Below are positions 4,877 through 32,053 of a stretch of 64,000 bases of DNA, one piece after another. The stretch is taken from NCBI RefSeq assembly GCF_011059105.1, contig NZ_JAALLS010000010.1:62001-126000 (forward strand). Direction: 5' to 3'. A model generated the notes under the pieces. The model did not search any database and was not told where the DNA came from. It saw nothing but the letters and a program-made list of their open reading frames with translations. Position 1 is the stretch's first letter, and each line of letters begins with the position of its first letter. Position numbers and translations under genes: made by a program. The stretch is from Fodinibius halophilus (GTDB lineage: Bacteria; Bacteroidota; Rhodothermia; Balneolales; Balneolaceae).

Positions 4877-4948
4877 TAGTCGAAAGTCGTAAGTATTGAG
4901 AGTTTGCCAAGTACTATGATTCTCTGCTTGTGACTTTCTACTTTTGAC
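4877..4948. repeat. Hairpin element between hppD and hmgA, same family as the fadN-fadA S23 flank
   Basis: It begins 3 bases after the hppD stop with TAGTCGAAAGTCGTAAGT. The right arm, ending near 4948, is complementary over about 16 bases with 3 mismatches (ACTTTCTACTTTTGAC). The 11-base start TAGTCGAAAGT is identical to the inward-read right end of the S23 cassette at 30371-30869. The internal word TGCCAAGT also occurs at the same relative place in that cassette's left flank. It carries no gene. In the mRNA it would form a stem just ahead of hmgA. Confidence 0.65.
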
Positions 4949-24930: not shown

Positions 24931-25572
24931 CTAGGGAGTAATGAGATGTGAGATTGTGAGATTTGAGACTATACGTAATGAGAGAAAAATTTATCAAAGA
25001 TAGTTTGTAAGGAATGTGTGTTTACACAGTCATACTAATAAGTAATAATTAAGACTGTTGTTTACTTATGCACAAATACAAAGATCTTGATATTTGGAAG
25101 AGAGCTGTTTCACTTGCAACTGATATATATAAAGCTACCTCCAATTTCCCTAGTGAAGAAAAATACGGTTTGGTCTCACAACTTAGAAGATGCGTAGTTT
25201 CAATAGGATCCAATATCGCTGAAGGCTCCGGACGTAATACCGATAAAGATTTCAACCGGTTTCTAAGTATTGCTTATGGTTCAACATGTGAGCTTGAAAC
25301 TCAGTTGATAGTTGCAACAAATCTAAAGCTATTACCTCTTGAAGAAAGCAAAAAGCTTCAACAAGAGGTAATAGAACTTCAAAAAATGATATTTACCTTC
25401 TCAAAAAGATTAAAACAACGTTAATAGGAAACCAGCTCTACGTTATATTTCTATCTCTCACATCTCTTTGACTCATAATCTCAATACTCATATCTCCCTA
25501 CTCACCATCCCACATCTCATAATCTCATAATCTCAAATCTCCTAGTCTCATATCTCCCAGTCTCACATCTCA
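24931..25572. repeat. S23 cassette 1: inverted GAGAT/TGAGA repeat arms around a four-helix-bundle gene
   Basis: The left arm (24931-24984) and right arm (about 25452-25572) are built from loosely periodic words of the form GAGATnTGAGA, in opposite orientation. TGAGATGTGAGA at 24942-24953 is perfectly complementary to TCTCACATCTCA at 25561-25572. The left arm starts 2 bases after a stop codon, and the right arm supplies the last codons and stop (GAG ATG TGA) of the convergent thioesterase gene. Transcribed as one RNA, the arms would fold into a long imperfect stem with the S23 gene in the loop. Confidence 0.7.
25068..25424 (+). CDS. Four-helix-bundle protein (S23/IVP family), copy 1
   Basis: The 118-residue protein has the family signature throughout: YKDLDIWKRAVSLATDIYKA, YGLVSQLRRCVVSIGSNIAE, GSGR, then FLSIAYGSTCELETQLIVA. 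Related proteins are encoded in 23S rRNA intervening sequences and as Avd of diversity-generating retroelements, where the small basic bundle binds nucleic acid. No rRNA or reverse transcriptase is nearby. It is about 45% identical by eye to copy 2 at 30464. It lies inside inverted repeat arms, which suggests it moves or works together with them. Confidence 0.93.
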   Translation: MHKYKDLDIWKRAVSLATDIYKATSNFPSEEKYGLVSQLRRCVVSIGSNIAEGSGRNTDKDFNRFLSIAYGSTCELETQLIVATNLKLLPLEESKKLQQEVIELQKMIFTFSKRLKQR

Positions 25573-25991
25573 ACAACTGCCAAAGTACACCGAGAAGTAC
25601 ATACCAGCTTTTCATTCATTGTATAAATATTTGTCTTCCATACCTGGGTTTGGCGTCCTCTGTGAACAGGTCTTGCAATACCTTGCACCGTATTATCCTT
25701 TTTTACTGCTCGCATATGGTTGGCATTAATTTCTATACCAACTGCTGTTTTGTCCTCATCGTCAATATTGAGCCACGCCCCCACAGAAGCCAGCGTTTCT
25801 GCTAATACTACAGAAGCCCCCCCGTGTAGAAAGCCAAAAGGCTGTACCGTATTTTTATCAACCGGCATAGTAGCTTTTATTTCGTCGATTTTAAACGAGG
25901 TAAAAGCGATGTTAAGACTATCTCCCATATGTAGCTGAGGGAGGTCCAAAAAATATTCAACACGTTTTTCTAAATTAGGTTGGATATACAT
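25563..25991 (-). CDS. Hotdog-fold acyl-CoA thioesterase (YdiI/MenI-like)
   Basis: The 142-residue hotdog protein has FGFLHGGASVVLAETLASVGA, the catalytic segment of the YdiI/EntH/MenI branch (family Glu in AET), and VGIEINANHMRAVKK in the second strand region. These enzymes hydrolyse aromatic or other acyl-CoA esters and free CoA. PaaI is an alternative given the phenylacetate genes, but HGGASVVLAE fits YdiI better. The final codons GAG ATG TGA coincide with a GAGATGTGA unit of the adjacent repeat arm, so the C-terminus may have been trimmed or rewritten by the element. Confidence 0.88.
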   Translation of the reverse strand: MYIQPNLEKRVEYFLDLPQLHMGDSLNIAFTSFKIDEIKATMPVDKNTVQPFGFLHGGASVVLAETLASVGAWLNIDDEDKTAVGIEINANHMRAVKKDNTVQGIARPVHRGRQTQVWKTNIYTMNEKLVCTSRCTLAVVEM

Positions 25992-26140
25992 AAAGTATTC
26001 TGTTACAATTCATTAGTAGATATTAATATAATCATTACAAGTGAAGAAGAAACAAAAATAGACTTTTAAATAAACTACAAAGGTGTAAATTAGTAGTGTA
26101 ACATACGCCATATTATATCATATATAACGGAGACTTATTT

Positions 26141-27943
26141 ATGGGCAACGAACATACTACAATCATTTCTGAGATTGATGCGGGATTGCGAAAGCATGAT
26201 AAAGAAGTTCTGATAGCTACCAAACGAAACGGCAAGTGGGTAAAAACCGGCCGAGATGAGTTTCAAAAAAAGGTTAGAAATTTTGCTCTGGGACTCTACC
26301 AGCTGGGTGTTCGTGAAGGCGATAAAGTGAGCGTACATTCAGAAAACAGTGCAGAATGGGTAATCTGTGATCAGGCTATTCTTTCTATAGGAGCGGCCAA
26401 CGTGCCCATTTATACCACACAGCCGGGAGATCAGGTCAAATATATTCTAGAAAACTCCGGTGCCAAAGTTCATATCGTCTCCACAGATAAACTGTTTAAG
26501 GATACCAAGCCGTTGATGAAAGGCATCACCAATGTAGAAGCGGTGATCTCTATATTTGGATCCAAGCATGATAAGCTCAAATCTTTCGATGCGATTATGG
26601 AGATGGGAGCCCAAAAGCATGAGGAAGAGCCCGAACTTTTCGAACAGCTTAAGTCGAAGGTAAAACCTGATGATCTGGCTACTTTGATCTATACGTCCGG
26701 CACCACAGGGGATCCCAAAGGAGTAATGTTGACCCATAACAATATTGCCTCCAATATTCGGGCTTCACTGGAACGAGTTCCATTCGATGAAGAGGTGAGA
26801 GAAGATGAGCGAATGCTATCTTACTTGCCTCTATCGCATGTGTTTGAACGTATGATTACATACCTGTATTTACATTTAGGATATCCCATTTATTACATTG
26901 AAGAAGTAGAGGAGATTCGTGATGATTTTGAATATGTGAAGCCGTACTACCTTGCTACTGTACCTCGGTTATTAGAGAAGATCCACACAGGGGTAAAGGT
27001 GAAGGGGCAGGAGTTGAGCGGACTTAAAAAACAGCTATACTACTGGGCGCTTCACCGGGCCGAAGAATATGATCCCGAAAACCCACCTTCAGGATTGGAA
27101 ACGGTGAAACACAAAATTGCCGACAAGTTGGTTTACTCTAAAATCAGGGAGTTGTTTGGAGGGAACCTGCTGGGTGTTGTGAGTGGGGGAGCAGCCCTTT
27201 CTCCAAACCTGTTTCGGTTTATGAATGCCATCGGCTTTATATGTCTGCAAGGGTACGGGCTTACCGAAACCTCTCCGGTACTTTCTGTACAAGATAAAGA
27301 TCACCTGCGGGTTGGCAGCTCCGGGTTTCCGCTGTCCAATGTGGATATCAAAATTGCAGAAGATGGCGAAATCCTTGCCAAAGGTCCCAATGTGATGGAA
27401 GGATATTATAATAACCCGGAAAAGACCGATGAGGTATTTACCGATGACGGCTGGTTTATGACCGGGGATGTTGGAAAGCTGGAAGACAACTACTTGTTTA
27501 TCACGGATCGTAAAAAGTCGGTATTTAAGCTTTCAACCGGTAAATATATAGCTCCTCAGATCATTGAGAATAAGCTAATAGAAAGTGGCTTTATTGACCA
27601 AGCTGTTGTGATTGGCTATCAACGTAAGTTTTGTTCAGCGTTAATTGTACCAAGTTTTGATAATGTAGAGCAACGGCTGAAGAGTCAAGGGAAATCGATG
27701 GCTGATAATGTCAGTGATGATCCTAAGGTACGAAAGCTTATCCAAGATGAGGTAGATAAAGTGAATAAAGAGCTGTCACCCTGGGAAACGGTTAAAAAGT
27801 TTGTGTTGTTAGATGCCGCTTTCTCTATTGAATCAGATGAACTTACGCCCACCCAAAAGGTGAAGAGACCGGTGGTCAAAGAACATTACTCCGATGAGAT
27901 AGAATCAATGTATGAGGAGGAAGGAACAGAGTCGCAAGGTTAG
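26141..27943 (+). CDS. Long-chain fatty-acid-CoA ligase (FadD15/AMP-binding type)
   Basis: The 600-residue long-chain synthetase has P-loop LIYTSGTTGDPKGVMLTH, the long-chain signature LPLSHVFERMITYLY, GYGLTETSPVLS, WFMTGDVGKLEDNYLFITDRKKS and VFKLSTGKYIAPQIIE. It activates long-chain fatty acids for the beta-oxidation genes that follow on the same strand: fadN starts 50 bases later. Signal peptide and membrane helix are absent. The end is acidic. Confidence 0.94.
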   Translation: MGNEHTTIISEIDAGLRKHDKEVLIATKRNGKWVKTGRDEFQKKVRNFALGLYQLGVREGDKVSVHSENSAEWVICDQAILSIGAANVPIYTTQPGDQVKYILENSGAKVHIVSTDKLFKDTKPLMKGITNVEAVISIFGSKHDKLKSFDAIMEMGAQKHEEEPELFEQLKSKVKPDDLATLIYTSGTTGDPKGVMLTHNNIASNIRASLERVPFDEEVREDERMLSYLPLSHVFERMITYLYLHLGYPIYYIEEVEEIRDDFEYVKPYYLATVPRLLEKIHTGVKVKGQELSGLKKQLYYWALHRAEEYDPENPPSGLETVKHKIADKLVYSKIRELFGGNLLGVVSGGAALSPNLFRFMNAIGFICLQGYGLTETSPVLSVQDKDHLRVGSSGFPLSNVDIKIAEDGEILAKGPNVMEGYYNNPEKTDEVFTDDGWFMTGDVGKLEDNYLFITDRKKSVFKLSTGKYIAPQIIENKLIESGFIDQAVVIGYQRKFCSALIVPSFDNVEQRLKSQGKSMADNVSDDPKVRKLIQDEVDKVNKELSPWETVKKFVLLDAAFSIESDELTPTQKVKRPVVKEHYSDEIESMYEEEGTESQG

Positions 27944-27993
27944 GAATATTATTTTTCAATTATTAGTACCAACAAGAATTTAATTATAAAGAT

Positions 27994-30366
27994 ATGTCTA
28001 CATCAAAATATGCTATTCAGAAAGTTGCAGTTTTGGGCTCAGGAACGATGGGCAGCCAAATTGCGGCTCATTGTGTGAACGCAGGATTGCAGGTTTGGTT
28101 GCTTGATCTCAAAGATGAGGAGAGTGATAATCCCAACCAACAGGTTATTGATAATGTCAAGAGGCTAAAAGAGATGAACCCCTCGCCGCTGGGAAAGCCC
28201 GAATATGCAGATCGCATAAAAGTGGGTAATTTTACTGATGATCTGGACCTGTTGGCAGAGGTTGACTGGGTATGTGAAGCCATCATTGAAAAGATGGATA
28301 TCAAGAAGAATTTGATGGCTGATATCGAAGAGGTGCGAACGCCGGGCACTATTGTCAGTTCGAATACCTCGGGATTGCCGATCGGAAAAATTAGCGAAGA
28401 TCTTTCTGAGGATTTTAAGGATCACTTTTTGGGGACGCACTTTTTTAACCCGCCCCGATATATGAAGCTTTTAGAAGTGATTCCTACAGATTCAACTTCT
28501 GAGGCTGTAACCGAATATATGAGCCGGTTCTGTGAGAAAGAGCTGGGTAAAGGGGTAGTACAGTGTAAAGATACTCCCAATTTTATTGCCAACCGCATCG
28601 GCATCTTTTCGATGGCCAGCATAATGCCACACTTTTTTAATGGATCATTCAGAGCCGAAGAGATCGACTATCTGCTGGGTACGCTCACGGGCTATTCCAA
28701 GGCAGCTACTTTTCGTACGGCCGATATGTCGGGATTGGATGTAATCCATCATGTGGCTACGAACCTGTACCCGGTTATTCCGGATGATGAACGGCGCGAG
28801 GTCTTTGATCTCCCCAAAGCGTTTGAGCAGATGGTAGAAGATGGGAAGCATGGAAATAAGGCAGGGGAAGGGTTTTATAAAAAGGTGCGTACCGATTCCG
28901 AGAAGGAATATAAGGTAATTAACCCGGATACCGGCGAATATGAATCGCAAATTTCCCCGGAGTTTGAGAGTGCATCTGAGGCTAAAGAAAAGTATGGCAG
29001 TTCCGAAGAACGACTCCGTTTTTTGGTTAATCAGGATGATGAAGTGGGTGACTTTTTGTGGGACATTCATTGCGACCTGTTGTTATATGCAGCGAACCGC
29101 ATCCCGGAAATAACGGACTCAGTTGAAGCTATTGATCGTGCTATGAAGTGGGGATTCAACTGGGAACTCGGCCCCTTTGAACGCTGGGATGCTATTGGGG
29201 TAGCGGAGTCTGTAGAACGCATGCAAGATGAAGGGCTGGAAGTACCGGAGACGGTCTTAGATATGCTCGAGAGTGGAAGAAAGAAGTTTTATGACTATGA
29301 AGAAGGTACCGTTTATAACTTGGCTACTGGCGATGTGGAATCTTTGAGTCCGCCTGCAGAAGGAGCTGTCACCGTATCCTCACTCAAAGCTGATGGCAAA
29401 GAAGTTATGGGGAATGACAGTGCCGGCTTGTATGATCTGGGCGATGGCGTGGCCCTCTTCGAATTTCGAACCCACAAATACACCCTGGGCTTTGAACTGG
29501 TCCAATCACTTGATAAAGCCTGTGATATTGTAGAGGAGCAGTTCGATGCTCTCGTAATTAGTCACGACGGAGATAACTTTACCTATGGGGCCAACCTGAT
29601 GGAAGCAATGGGAGCTTGGCAGCAGGGTGATAAGGAACGGGTTAAAGAAGCAGTTAAGAATTTCCAGGATGTAGCAGTAGGGCTGCGCTATCGTCCATTC
29701 CCGGTTATTGCTGCTCCCTTTGGGCGATGTCTCGGCGGCGGCGTGGAGTTTATCCTTTATTCGGATAAGGTTCTGGCCCACCATGAATTATATGCCGGAT
29801 TGGTAGAAGTGGGAGTAGGACTGTTGCCGGCAGGGGGAGGAACGACAGAAATGCTAGCTCGAGCCATGGAACAGGTTATGGAAGATGAGCAGGTTGATCC
29901 CATGCCGAATGTCAAAGAGGTGTTTAAGACTATTGGTATGGCGGAAGTTTCGGATGGAGCACCCAAGGCAAAAACGTTAAAGTACTTGCGCGACTCCGAT
30001 GAAATTGTAATGAATCGTGATCTGCTGATCGCCAATGCCAAGGCAGAGGCCCGACGGATGGTCGATGCGGGTTATCATCCCCCGGCAAAACCACAGCTTA
30101 AAGTACTTGGTAAACGTGCACTAAGTTCGCTACGACTGATGCTATATATTATGCATGAAGCCAACTTTATTACTGATTATGATAAGGTGGTAGCTGATGA
30201 TATAGCTTATATTATGAGTGGGGGCGATCTCAGTGAGCCGCAAGAGGTACCCGAAGATTATCTGTTGCGATTGGAGAGAGAAGCGTTTTTAAAATTGCTT
30301 GAAGATGAACGTACCCAAGCTAGAATTGAACATATGTTAAAGAAAGGAAAGCCATTAAGAAACTAG
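27994..30366 (+). CDS. fadN: 3-hydroxyacyl-CoA dehydrogenase/enoyl-CoA hydratase, FadN type
   Basis: The 790-residue bifunctional enzyme has the dehydrogenase first and the crotonase domain last, as in Bacillus FadN and opposite to FadB. The NAD site is VAVLGSGTMGSQIAAHCVNA, the dehydrogenase signature HFFNPPRYMKLLEVIP, and a second HAD C-terminal domain follows at about 350-440. The hydratase part shows FPVIAAPFGRCLGGGVEFIL and YAGLVEVGVGLLPAGGG with both acidic residues. It performs the two middle steps of beta-oxidation. An S23 cassette separates it from fadA. Confidence 0.94.
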   Translation: MSTSKYAIQKVAVLGSGTMGSQIAAHCVNAGLQVWLLDLKDEESDNPNQQVIDNVKRLKEMNPSPLGKPEYADRIKVGNFTDDLDLLAEVDWVCEAIIEKMDIKKNLMADIEEVRTPGTIVSSNTSGLPIGKISEDLSEDFKDHFLGTHFFNPPRYMKLLEVIPTDSTSEAVTEYMSRFCEKELGKGVVQCKDTPNFIANRIGIFSMASIMPHFFNGSFRAEEIDYLLGTLTGYSKAATFRTADMSGLDVIHHVATNLYPVIPDDERREVFDLPKAFEQMVEDGKHGNKAGEGFYKKVRTDSEKEYKVINPDTGEYESQISPEFESASEAKEKYGSSEERLRFLVNQDDEVGDFLWDIHCDLLLYAANRIPEITDSVEAIDRAMKWGFNWELGPFERWDAIGVAESVERMQDEGLEVPETVLDMLESGRKKFYDYEEGTVYNLATGDVESLSPPAEGAVTVSSLKADGKEVMGNDSAGLYDLGDGVALFEFRTHKYTLGFELVQSLDKACDIVEEQFDALVISHDGDNFTYGANLMEAMGAWQQGDKERVKEAVKNFQDVAVGLRYRPFPVIAAPFGRCLGGGVEFILYSDKVLAHHELYAGLVEVGVGLLPAGGGTTEMLARAMEQVMEDEQVDPMPNVKEVFKTIGMAEVSDGAPKAKTLKYLRDSDEIVMNRDLLIANAKAEARRMVDAGYHPPAKPQLKVLGKRALSSLRLMLYIMHEANFITDYDKVVADDIAYIMSGGDLSEPQEVPEDYLLRLEREAFLKLLEDERTQARIEHMLKKGKPLRN

Positions 30367-30370
30367 TTAA

Positions 30371-30869
30371 TAGTCGAAGGTCAAAAGTGGAAAAGTTTGT
30401 AAGTTGCCAAGTGTTTAGCAGTCTTACTTGTAAGTAACCACTTTAATTAAAAGGCTATTAATCATGAATAATTTTAGAAATTTAGATGTTTGGGATAAGG
30501 CTGTCGAATTGGCGACTTATGTATATCAGATAACGGAAAACTTTCCCAAGACTGAAACATATGGACTCACAAGTCAAATGAGGAGAAGTGCTATTTCAAT
30601 AAGTTCAAATATTGCAGAAGGGGCTGGAAGAGGATCAAAGAAGGAATTCAGCCATTTTTTAAATATTTCGATGGGGTCTTGTTATGAATTGGAAACTCAG
30701 CTTACTATTTCACAGAACTTGCAGTTTTTGAATGGTGTTGATTTTGAAAAAATCTCAGATAAACTGATTGAAATACAGAAAATGATTTATTCTTTAAGAA
30801 AAAGTTTAAATGCGTAACTAAAGTAACTTTACTTATCACTTTTTACTTACAACTTACTACTTTCGACTA
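30371..30869. repeat. S23 cassette 2: TAGTCGAA-ended element between fadN and fadA
   Basis: It starts 4 bases after the fadN stop with TAGTCGAA and ends with TTCGACTA 2 bases before the fadA ATG, a perfect 8-base terminal inverted repeat that extends to 11 with one mismatch. The arms are rich in AAAGT/GTAAGT words on the left and ACTT words on the right. The left flank, about 30371-30455, aligns by eye with the gene-less element at 4877-4948, sharing TAGTCGAA and TGCCAAGT in order. One S23 gene lies inside. Confidence 0.75.
30464..30817 (+). CDS. Four-helix-bundle protein (S23/IVP family), copy 2
   Basis: The 117-residue protein carries FRNLDVWDKAVELATYVYQ, YGLTSQMRRSAISISSNIAE, GAGRGSKKEFSHFLNISMGS and CYELETQL, the S23 family pattern. 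It interrupts the fadN-fadA operon and is flanked by terminal inverted repeats. Since it lies in the same direction as the fatty-acid genes, it will be co-transcribed with them. It may bind the RNA stem formed by its own flanks; this is inference from the family's nucleic-acid binding. Confidence 0.93.
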   Translation: MNNFRNLDVWDKAVELATYVYQITENFPKTETYGLTSQMRRSAISISSNIAEGAGRGSKKEFSHFLNISMGSCYELETQLTISQNLQFLNGVDFEKISDKLIEIQKMIYSLRKSLNA

Positions 30870-30871
30870 CT

Positions 30872-32053
30872 ATGAAAAATGCAGTTATAGTTGCGGCAAC
30901 GAGAACACCAACAGGAAAGGCTAATAAAGGATCACTTCGTTTTACACCCCCGGATACCCTCGGCGGAGAAGTGATAAAATCATTATTGCAGAAGGCTCCT
31001 AACTTGCAACCCGAAATGGTTGATGATGTGATTTTGGGATGCGCGTTTCCCGAGGCTGCACAGGGGCTCAATATTGCTCGACAGTGTGCTGCTTTAGGGG
31101 GCTTACCACCTTCGGTACCTGCTGCTACCATGAACCGGTTTTGTTCCTCCGGCTTGCAAACGATAGCCCAGGCGGCTGAACGCATTATGACCGGCGCGGC
31201 AGATGTGATCATTGCCGGTGGGGTAGAATCGATGTCGCTGGTACCTATGGGCGGCTATGTTGTGGAACCAAATCCCGACTTAGTGGATAACTATCCCGAG
31301 ATCTATATCAACATGGGATTAACAGCCGAGAATGTTGCCGAAAAATATGAGGTTGGTCGCGATGCTCAAGATGCCTTTGCCTACCGTAGTCACCAGCGTG
31401 CAATAGAAGCATGGGAGGAGGAGTACTTTGATGAGCAGATTACTCCGATTAAAGTGAAAGAAAAGAAAGTTACCGCTGGTGGAGAAGTGGAGGAAAATGA
31501 GTTCTTATTTGAACAAGATGAAGGTCCGCGGCGCGATACCTCGAAAGAGATATTGGCGAAACTTAACCCGGCCTTTAAACAAGGCGGTACCGTTACTGCA
31601 GGGAACTCTTCGCAGATGAATGATGCTGCAGCTGCTGTAATGGTGATGAGCCAAGAAAAAGCTGATGAGCTGGGACTGCAACCCATTGCAAAGTATCATG
31701 GATTTTCTGTAGCCGGCGTTCCTCCCGAAATTATGGGAATTGGTCCCGTTGAGGCCGTGCCCAAAGTGCTGAAGCAAACAGGCATGGATTTGAATGATAT
31801 TGACTTGGTAGAATTAAATGAAGCTTTTGCAGCCCAATCGGTAGCGGTAATTCGTGAGTTGGGACTTGATGAGGAGATCGTCAATATTAATGGCGGCGCT
31901 ATTGCTATGGGACATCCCCTTGGGTGTACGGGAGCAAAGCTGACTACACAGATCTTGCATGACCTTCAACGCCTTGACAAACAGTTCGGCATGGTTACCA
32001 TGTGTGTCGGGGGAGGAATGGGCGCAGCAGGCATTTTTGAGAATGTGAATTAA
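30872..32053 (+). CDS. fadA: Acetyl-CoA C-acyltransferase (3-ketoacyl-CoA thiolase)
   Basis: The 393-residue thiolase has the acyl-accepting Cys in [17 protein letters not shown], the substrate-binding [11 protein letters not shown], the catalytic His in [18 protein letters not shown] and the second Cys in [17 protein letters not shown]. It cleaves 3-ketoacyl-CoA made by FadN. Its start lies 2 bases past the end of the S23 cassette, so the element replaced whatever leader was there. Confidence 0.94.

Follow-up and report, generated by a model that had tools for sequence, protein, structure and literature searches.

Small S23 genes that lie between protein genes and are bordered by repeats raise the question of whether gene and repeats make up one element, and what kind of element this would be. 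The window, i.e. the whole stretch of 64,000 nt of Fodinibius halophilus DNA analysed here, carries two of them, as noted in the preliminary description: copy 1 at 25068-25424 (118 aa) and copy 2 at 30464-30817 (117 aa). Both are located on the forward strand, as are all window features described below unless stated otherwise. Their four-helix-bundle products match PF05635 with E-values of about 1e-40 (3.7e-40 and 5.9e-41), scoring 136.9 and 139.4 bits against PF05635/TIGR02436, for which the curated cut-off is 33.8. Besides PF05635, profile searches with the two cassette proteins returned a weak similarity to bAvd (PF22296; 21.3 and 33.3 bits, below the Pfam cut-off of 40) and nothing else. 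No Y1/HUH transposase is thus encoded by the element, confirming what had been proposed from inspection. The DGR accessory protein bAvd and S23 belong to the same fold class of four-helix pentamers; in the window, no reverse transcriptase or template repeat was seen beside either cassette.

The two cassettes and the structure of S23 arms

Cassette 1 is placed in a thioesterase gap, between protein genes. Its left arm is an array of heptamers and octamers of the TGAGATG type (24942-24971), followed by the promoter-like motif TTGTAAGG-N16-GTCATACT (25005-25036) upstream of the S23 gene. The right array (25456-25572) is comprised of several inverted copies of the CTCACATCTCA type. The outermost of them, at 25543-25572, is 90% complementary to the left arm over 30 nt, and additional arm copies are found at 25456, 25501 and 25527. 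The alignment score of these arms is 45, compared to a maximum of 27-29 in shuffles.

Cassette 2 is situated between fadN (27994-30366) and fadA (30872-32053). The left array, TAGTCGAAGGTCAAAAGTGG.. (30371-30397), begins 4 nt past the fadN stop and is weak when considered alone; it continues into the promoter-like motif TGTAAG-N18-TCTTACT (30398-30428; G000:C2:92398-92428) upstream of copy 2. A right array that ends in TTCGACTA (30828-30869) lies directly before the fadA start, and its 7-nt period extends over 30828-30872. The outer ends match over 8 nt, TAGTCGAA at 30371 with TTCGACTA at 30862. Taken alone, these arms reach a score of 21, whereas the best shuffles reach 24-26; this is not above chance. 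The proposal that each gene is enclosed by its own inverted repeats therefore holds for copy 1, while the arms of copy 2 are credible solely as members of the family set.

This set includes 227 distinct S23 genes with their flanks, collected from the same genome and its relatives, wider Bacteroidota, cyanobacterial plasmids and genomes of many phyla. The F. halophilus genome (4.19 Mb in 91 contigs) has 15 S23 loci, the two window copies included, and relatives from its genus and from Balneolaceae, assigned by the names of close loci, have up to about 13 each. The 13 further loci, the heptamer-array nature of the arms and the shared promoter described below had been overlooked in the preliminary description. 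PDB 2gsc, which corresponds to locus XCC0516 of Xanthomonas campestris, was found by sequence as an S23 homologue. Four S23 genes of cyanobacterial plasmids were observed between cas6 and cas4, between cas10 and cmr3, and between two ribonucleotide reductase genes.

To compare arms, we reverse-complemented the downstream flanks and aligned each upstream flank both with the one from its own gene and with those of all other genes. Among 103 genes of the Balneolaceae family, own pairs have a mean score of 30.0 and cross pairs 18.7 (0/100,000 permutations). Identity at lag 7 is 0.574, compared to 0.297 in shuffles, and other lags remain at the background level, except in a minority of octamer arrays. 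Arms are, accordingly, degenerate tandem heptamers, with mostly three to five units in the left array. Matched inverted arms were detected in 126 of the 227 loci and direct ones in 23, and at the scoring threshold applied about 45% of loci lack matching arms. On the sense strand, a skew towards G marks 108 of 110 5' arms (p 9e-30). Array length is highly variable among five near-identical Nostoc elements. The order of heptamer variants is weakly preserved between arms; this measure is biased by arm choice and was not used. One locus of the same genome, L008, carries direct instead of inverted arrays, of the GGGTTGCG type, with scores of 90 for the direct and 14 for the inverted match. Neither cassette stands out within what is a large, so far unnamed class of S23 genes that have subfamily-specific heptamer arms, occur in many phyla and have no transposase.

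Gene-less derivatives and the fadN-fadA junction

Two gene-less hairpins had been indicated in the window, and both are real, with arms of the heptamer type. The one in the hppD-hmgA gap (4877-4942; lag-7 array at 4877-4905) folds with a z-score of -2.5. The other, composed in the same language as GGGTTGCG.., lies on the reverse strand beside a paaA-type gene (about 2494-2563; z -4.6), and none of 200 shuffles was equally stable. An alignment of about 85 bases between the left flank of cassette 2 and the 4877 element, suggested by eye, shrinks to about 35 nt, a match equalled by 3 of 500 shuffles.

Arms also recur elsewhere in the genome. In 0.8 Mb examined, the strictest setting gave 24 lag-7 arrays, against 0-3 for other lags not divisible by three. 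At the middle setting, 22 of 39 arrays are intergenic, in comparison with an intergenic share of sequence of about 15%, and many of the intergenic arrays in this 0.8 Mb are not near any S23 gene. A search for GGGAATC arrays in viral contigs gave three matches, none of which has an S23 gene beside it.

The fadN-fadA junction was used for assessing presence and absence of the element. In four relatives 1-2 nt separate the two genes, whereas junctions occupied by S23 span about 400-650 nt. The presence/absence polymorphism anticipated in the preliminary description therefore exists at this orthologous site. In further relatives arms are kept and the S23 gene is deleted, or other spacers are found, so that S23-deleted remnants exist alongside gene-less hairpins. 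Three genomes from other Bacteroidota families are occupied at the same junction as well. A tree of S23 proteins from the fadN site has 8 changes of site label with weak support, and does not separate repeated insertion from an ancient insertion with copies leaving it. Four fadN-site elements from one genus have, between the left arm and the promoter with its S23 gene, an inverse copy of that arm, so that a solo hairpin stands beside a full element.

Association of S23 subfamilies with heptamers

Among the 126 elements whose arms are clear, arm similarity rises with protein similarity in pairs at different sites (r 0.548, 0/2000 permutations), and this association persists without the cross-phylum set (r 0.318, 0/2000 permutations); the permutation figures are descriptive because pairs are not independent. 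Within one subfamily, arm similarity across phyla is 0.378 (331 pairs, 11 phyla), compared to 0.081 between different S23 subfamilies residing in one genome (38 pairs). Because of this difference, host composition is not the cause of the association. Proteins of the L003 type are 62-82% identical across Balneolota, Ignavibacteria, Cyanobacteria, Verrucomicrobia, Acidobacteria, Chloroflexi, Nitrospirota, Desulfobacterota and Firmicutes, and in many of these phyla their genes are surrounded by (TCAGGAG/TCAGAAT)n arms. Within the F. halophilus genome, two S23 copies with alike arms occupy two sites, with a protein similarity of 0.75 and an arm similarity of 0.85. Since similar S23 proteins at different sites carry similar heptamers, even across phyla, the gene is passed on together with its arms, and the heptamer of a given S23 subfamily is retained from one phylum to the next.

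From this association we infer that S23 recognises its own heptamer and that gene and arms are mobile as a unit, although co-inheritance could produce the association without recognition. Their combination leads to the reading that we modestly favour: a selfish, transposase-less relative of intervening sequences, REPtron-like, in which a pentameric S23 would recognise its own heptamers. The element would consist of the S23 gene between inverted arrays of degenerate heptamers, inserted in gaps between genes and mostly inside operons. Single-stranded copies of the array, RNA or DNA, would be the probable ligand of the pentamer, and binding may protect the element, spread it, or both. Deletion of the S23 gene would leave solo heptamer hairpins behind. 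Functionally, such a system would resemble RAYT-REP, with S23 in the place of RAYT.

Promoter, orientation and relationship to known systems

Many Balneolaceae S23 genes are preceded by the motif TTGTAAGG-N16-GTC(A/T)TACT (GTCWTACT; also TTGTAAGG-N16-GTCTTACT). It has 12 matches in the F. halophilus genome, compared to none for the reversed pattern and none expected from window shuffles. Of 91 Balneolaceae S23 genes, 38 have a relaxed form in their upstream region, compared to none of 91 control stretches; it is absent from all 51 S23 genes in other phyla and all 34 in other Bacteroidota. In the same genome the motif also precedes Y1 (RAYT-type) transposases, comEA, comM, radC and a GIY-YIG gene, and in relatives it precedes ssb and a tyrosine-recombinase-like gene, both named by eye. 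The 5' core TGTAAGG..CWTAC was also considered as a conserved RNA structure. This was rejected in favour of a promoter because of the fixed spacing, the genome-wide matches upstream of comEA, comM and radC, and the absence outside Balneolaceae. The left flank in this family holds a predicted promoter, and is not an RNA stem alone. The genes sharing it look like a DNA-uptake regulon, a putative name based on gene content.

Some genes other than S23 resemble these elements in their surroundings. Two GIY-YIG genes of the same genome (L393 and L404) have the same promoter and are flanked on both sides by a dispersed repeat in inverted orientation, AGATCCTGAAACAAGTTCAGGATGACAAG, matching at 29 of 29 positions in L393; the overall design is S23-like and the repeat is different. 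In a relative, the promoter also stands before a gene recognised by eye as GxxExxY-like, whose inverted arms consist of CACAGAT-like repeats. Three RAYT-type Y1 transposase genes of the F. halophilus genome combine the shared promoter with REP-like palindromes.

Insertion orientation was deduced from strand calls based on longest open frames. By these calls, elements in tandem gene pairs outside Balneolaceae are in sense orientation in 52 of 54 cases, while antisense and convergent insertions are common in Balneolaceae. In this family the promoter accompanies 23 of 37 non-sense and 13 of 49 sense insertions (p 0.002). The 52:2 bias, together with the more frequent antisense or convergent placement of promoter-bearing copies, is consistent with elements relying on host transcription except where they carry promoters themselves. 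Under the favoured reading of a selfish S23 element, the operon transcript would include promoterless insertions, whose arms would pair into a stem enclosing the S23 message in the manner of rRNA intervening sequences. Many copies in Balneolaceae would have acquired the promoter of the apparent DNA-uptake regulon, and S23 would then be made while incoming or replicating DNA is single-stranded.

Intervening sequences (IVS) of 23S rRNA, inserted in helix 9, 25 or 45, are known in Leptospira, Coxiella, Salmonella and others. S23 homologues form pentamers of four-helix bundles, and the Coxiella IVS has GACAGAT heptamers before the S23 ORF (PMC4990558). It is excised by RNase III, the cleavage falling where the first repeat begins, and its authors concluded that S23p is probably not made (PMC4990558). 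Our elements share with rRNA IVS an S23 ORF within complementary, stem-forming ends, clearly so in copy 1 and through the family set only in copy 2. In contrast to rRNA IVS, both cassettes lie between protein genes, and elements of this class generally occur in protein operons and on plasmids; they have solo derivatives, in some cases their own promoters, and arms that are long, degenerate heptamer arrays specific for the S23 subfamily. The preliminary view of an intergenic version of the S23/IVS design is in line with matched arms, solo copies, presence/absence and the lack of a transposase, and needs correction in that the arms are degenerate 7-nt tandem arrays. An RNA-stem role of the arms is possible; among 12 cassettes, no credible match to a curated RNA family was found in Rfam.

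This likeness leads to the strongest competing explanation, in which everything happens on RNA. RNase III would cut the arm stem and free the S23 message from the operon transcript, rendering the insertion harmless; S23 would merely bind or protect RNA, and recombination or transformation would spread the element rarely and by accident. The IVS anatomy known from Coxiella and its excision there by RNase III (PMC4990558), the sense bias outside Balneolaceae and the strict polarity of arms all agree with it. However, because antisense and convergent insertions are common in Balneolaceae and favoured by promoter-bearing copies, excision from host transcripts is not the whole story, and the 62-82% identity across phyla and subfamily-specific heptamers are left unexplained. 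We consider this explanation unlikely.

A parallel also exists with RAYT-REP/REPIN systems (REPtrons). In both, one small protein gene corresponds to each repeat family, and gene-less derivatives, found here in the window and in 0.8 Mb of the genome, are dispersed in intergenic regions; RAYT-type Y1 genes and S23 elements of F. halophilus have a common promoter class. Unlike RAYT, S23 has no HUH/Y1 nuclease, and its repeats are heptamer arrays and not single palindromes. Terminal inverted arms, solo copies and Y1 transposases in the same regulon could suggest a DNA transposon or MITE moved in trans by enzymes such as these co-regulated Y1/RAYT transposases, with S23 as a passenger. Nevertheless, the target-site duplication expected of IS elements and MITEs was not found in 113 elements (exact match 5.12 nt in own and 4.95 nt in cross comparisons). 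In addition, arms differ wholly between subfamilies, Y1 genes have REP palindromes of their own, heptamer arrays are unlike transposase-bound ends, and S23 is accompanied by its own heptamer in several phyla, making this scenario improbable. Equally improbable are simple repeats made by slippage, with arms matched via template switching at quasi-palindromes around an ordinary drifting S23 gene that has no role in the repeats: variable array length in Nostoc and weakly preserved variant order would agree with this, but only period 7 is enriched, polarity is fixed, and one heptamer accompanies one S23 subfamily across 11 phyla.

Degenerate heptamer repeats have been known in cyanobacteria since about 1990, and include the STRR of heterocystous species. 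Dispersed heptamers GGGAATC in Xanthomonas, with 70 convergent inverted pairs, and GGGGA(C/T)T in Nostoc (PMC4692102), as well as TAACTGA in Beggiatoaceae, Cyanobacteria and Bacteroidetes (PMC4679880), were reported without a source gene. They resemble S23 arms in being degenerate, tandem and intergenic, and arms of TAGGGAG and TCAGTTA-like sequence are present around S23 genes in our set, pointing to a putative link with S23. In the open-access literature we found no paper that ties S23 elements to dispersed heptamer repeats, besides the repeats of Coxiella itself.

Constancy of repeats within S23 subfamilies across many phyla suggests a widespread selfish element and a source for unexplained repeat families. 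The broadest formulation, a transposase-less S23 mobile system with a protein-to-heptamer code, of which the repeats in cyanobacteria, Xanthomonas and Beggiatoaceae would be arms and relics, is one we hold with somewhat less than even confidence. Under such a code, one heptamer would be recognised by each S23 subfamily and carried by it across bacterial phyla. To our knowledge, no function has been assigned to the S23/IVP protein in about thirty years, and no source to dispersed heptamer repeats; their subfamily-specific association renders both S23 function and repeat origin testable. The promoter held in common with DNA-uptake genes hints at when S23 elements would act, and further small dispersed genes, such as GIY-YIG and GxxExxY, may follow an S23-like design as well.
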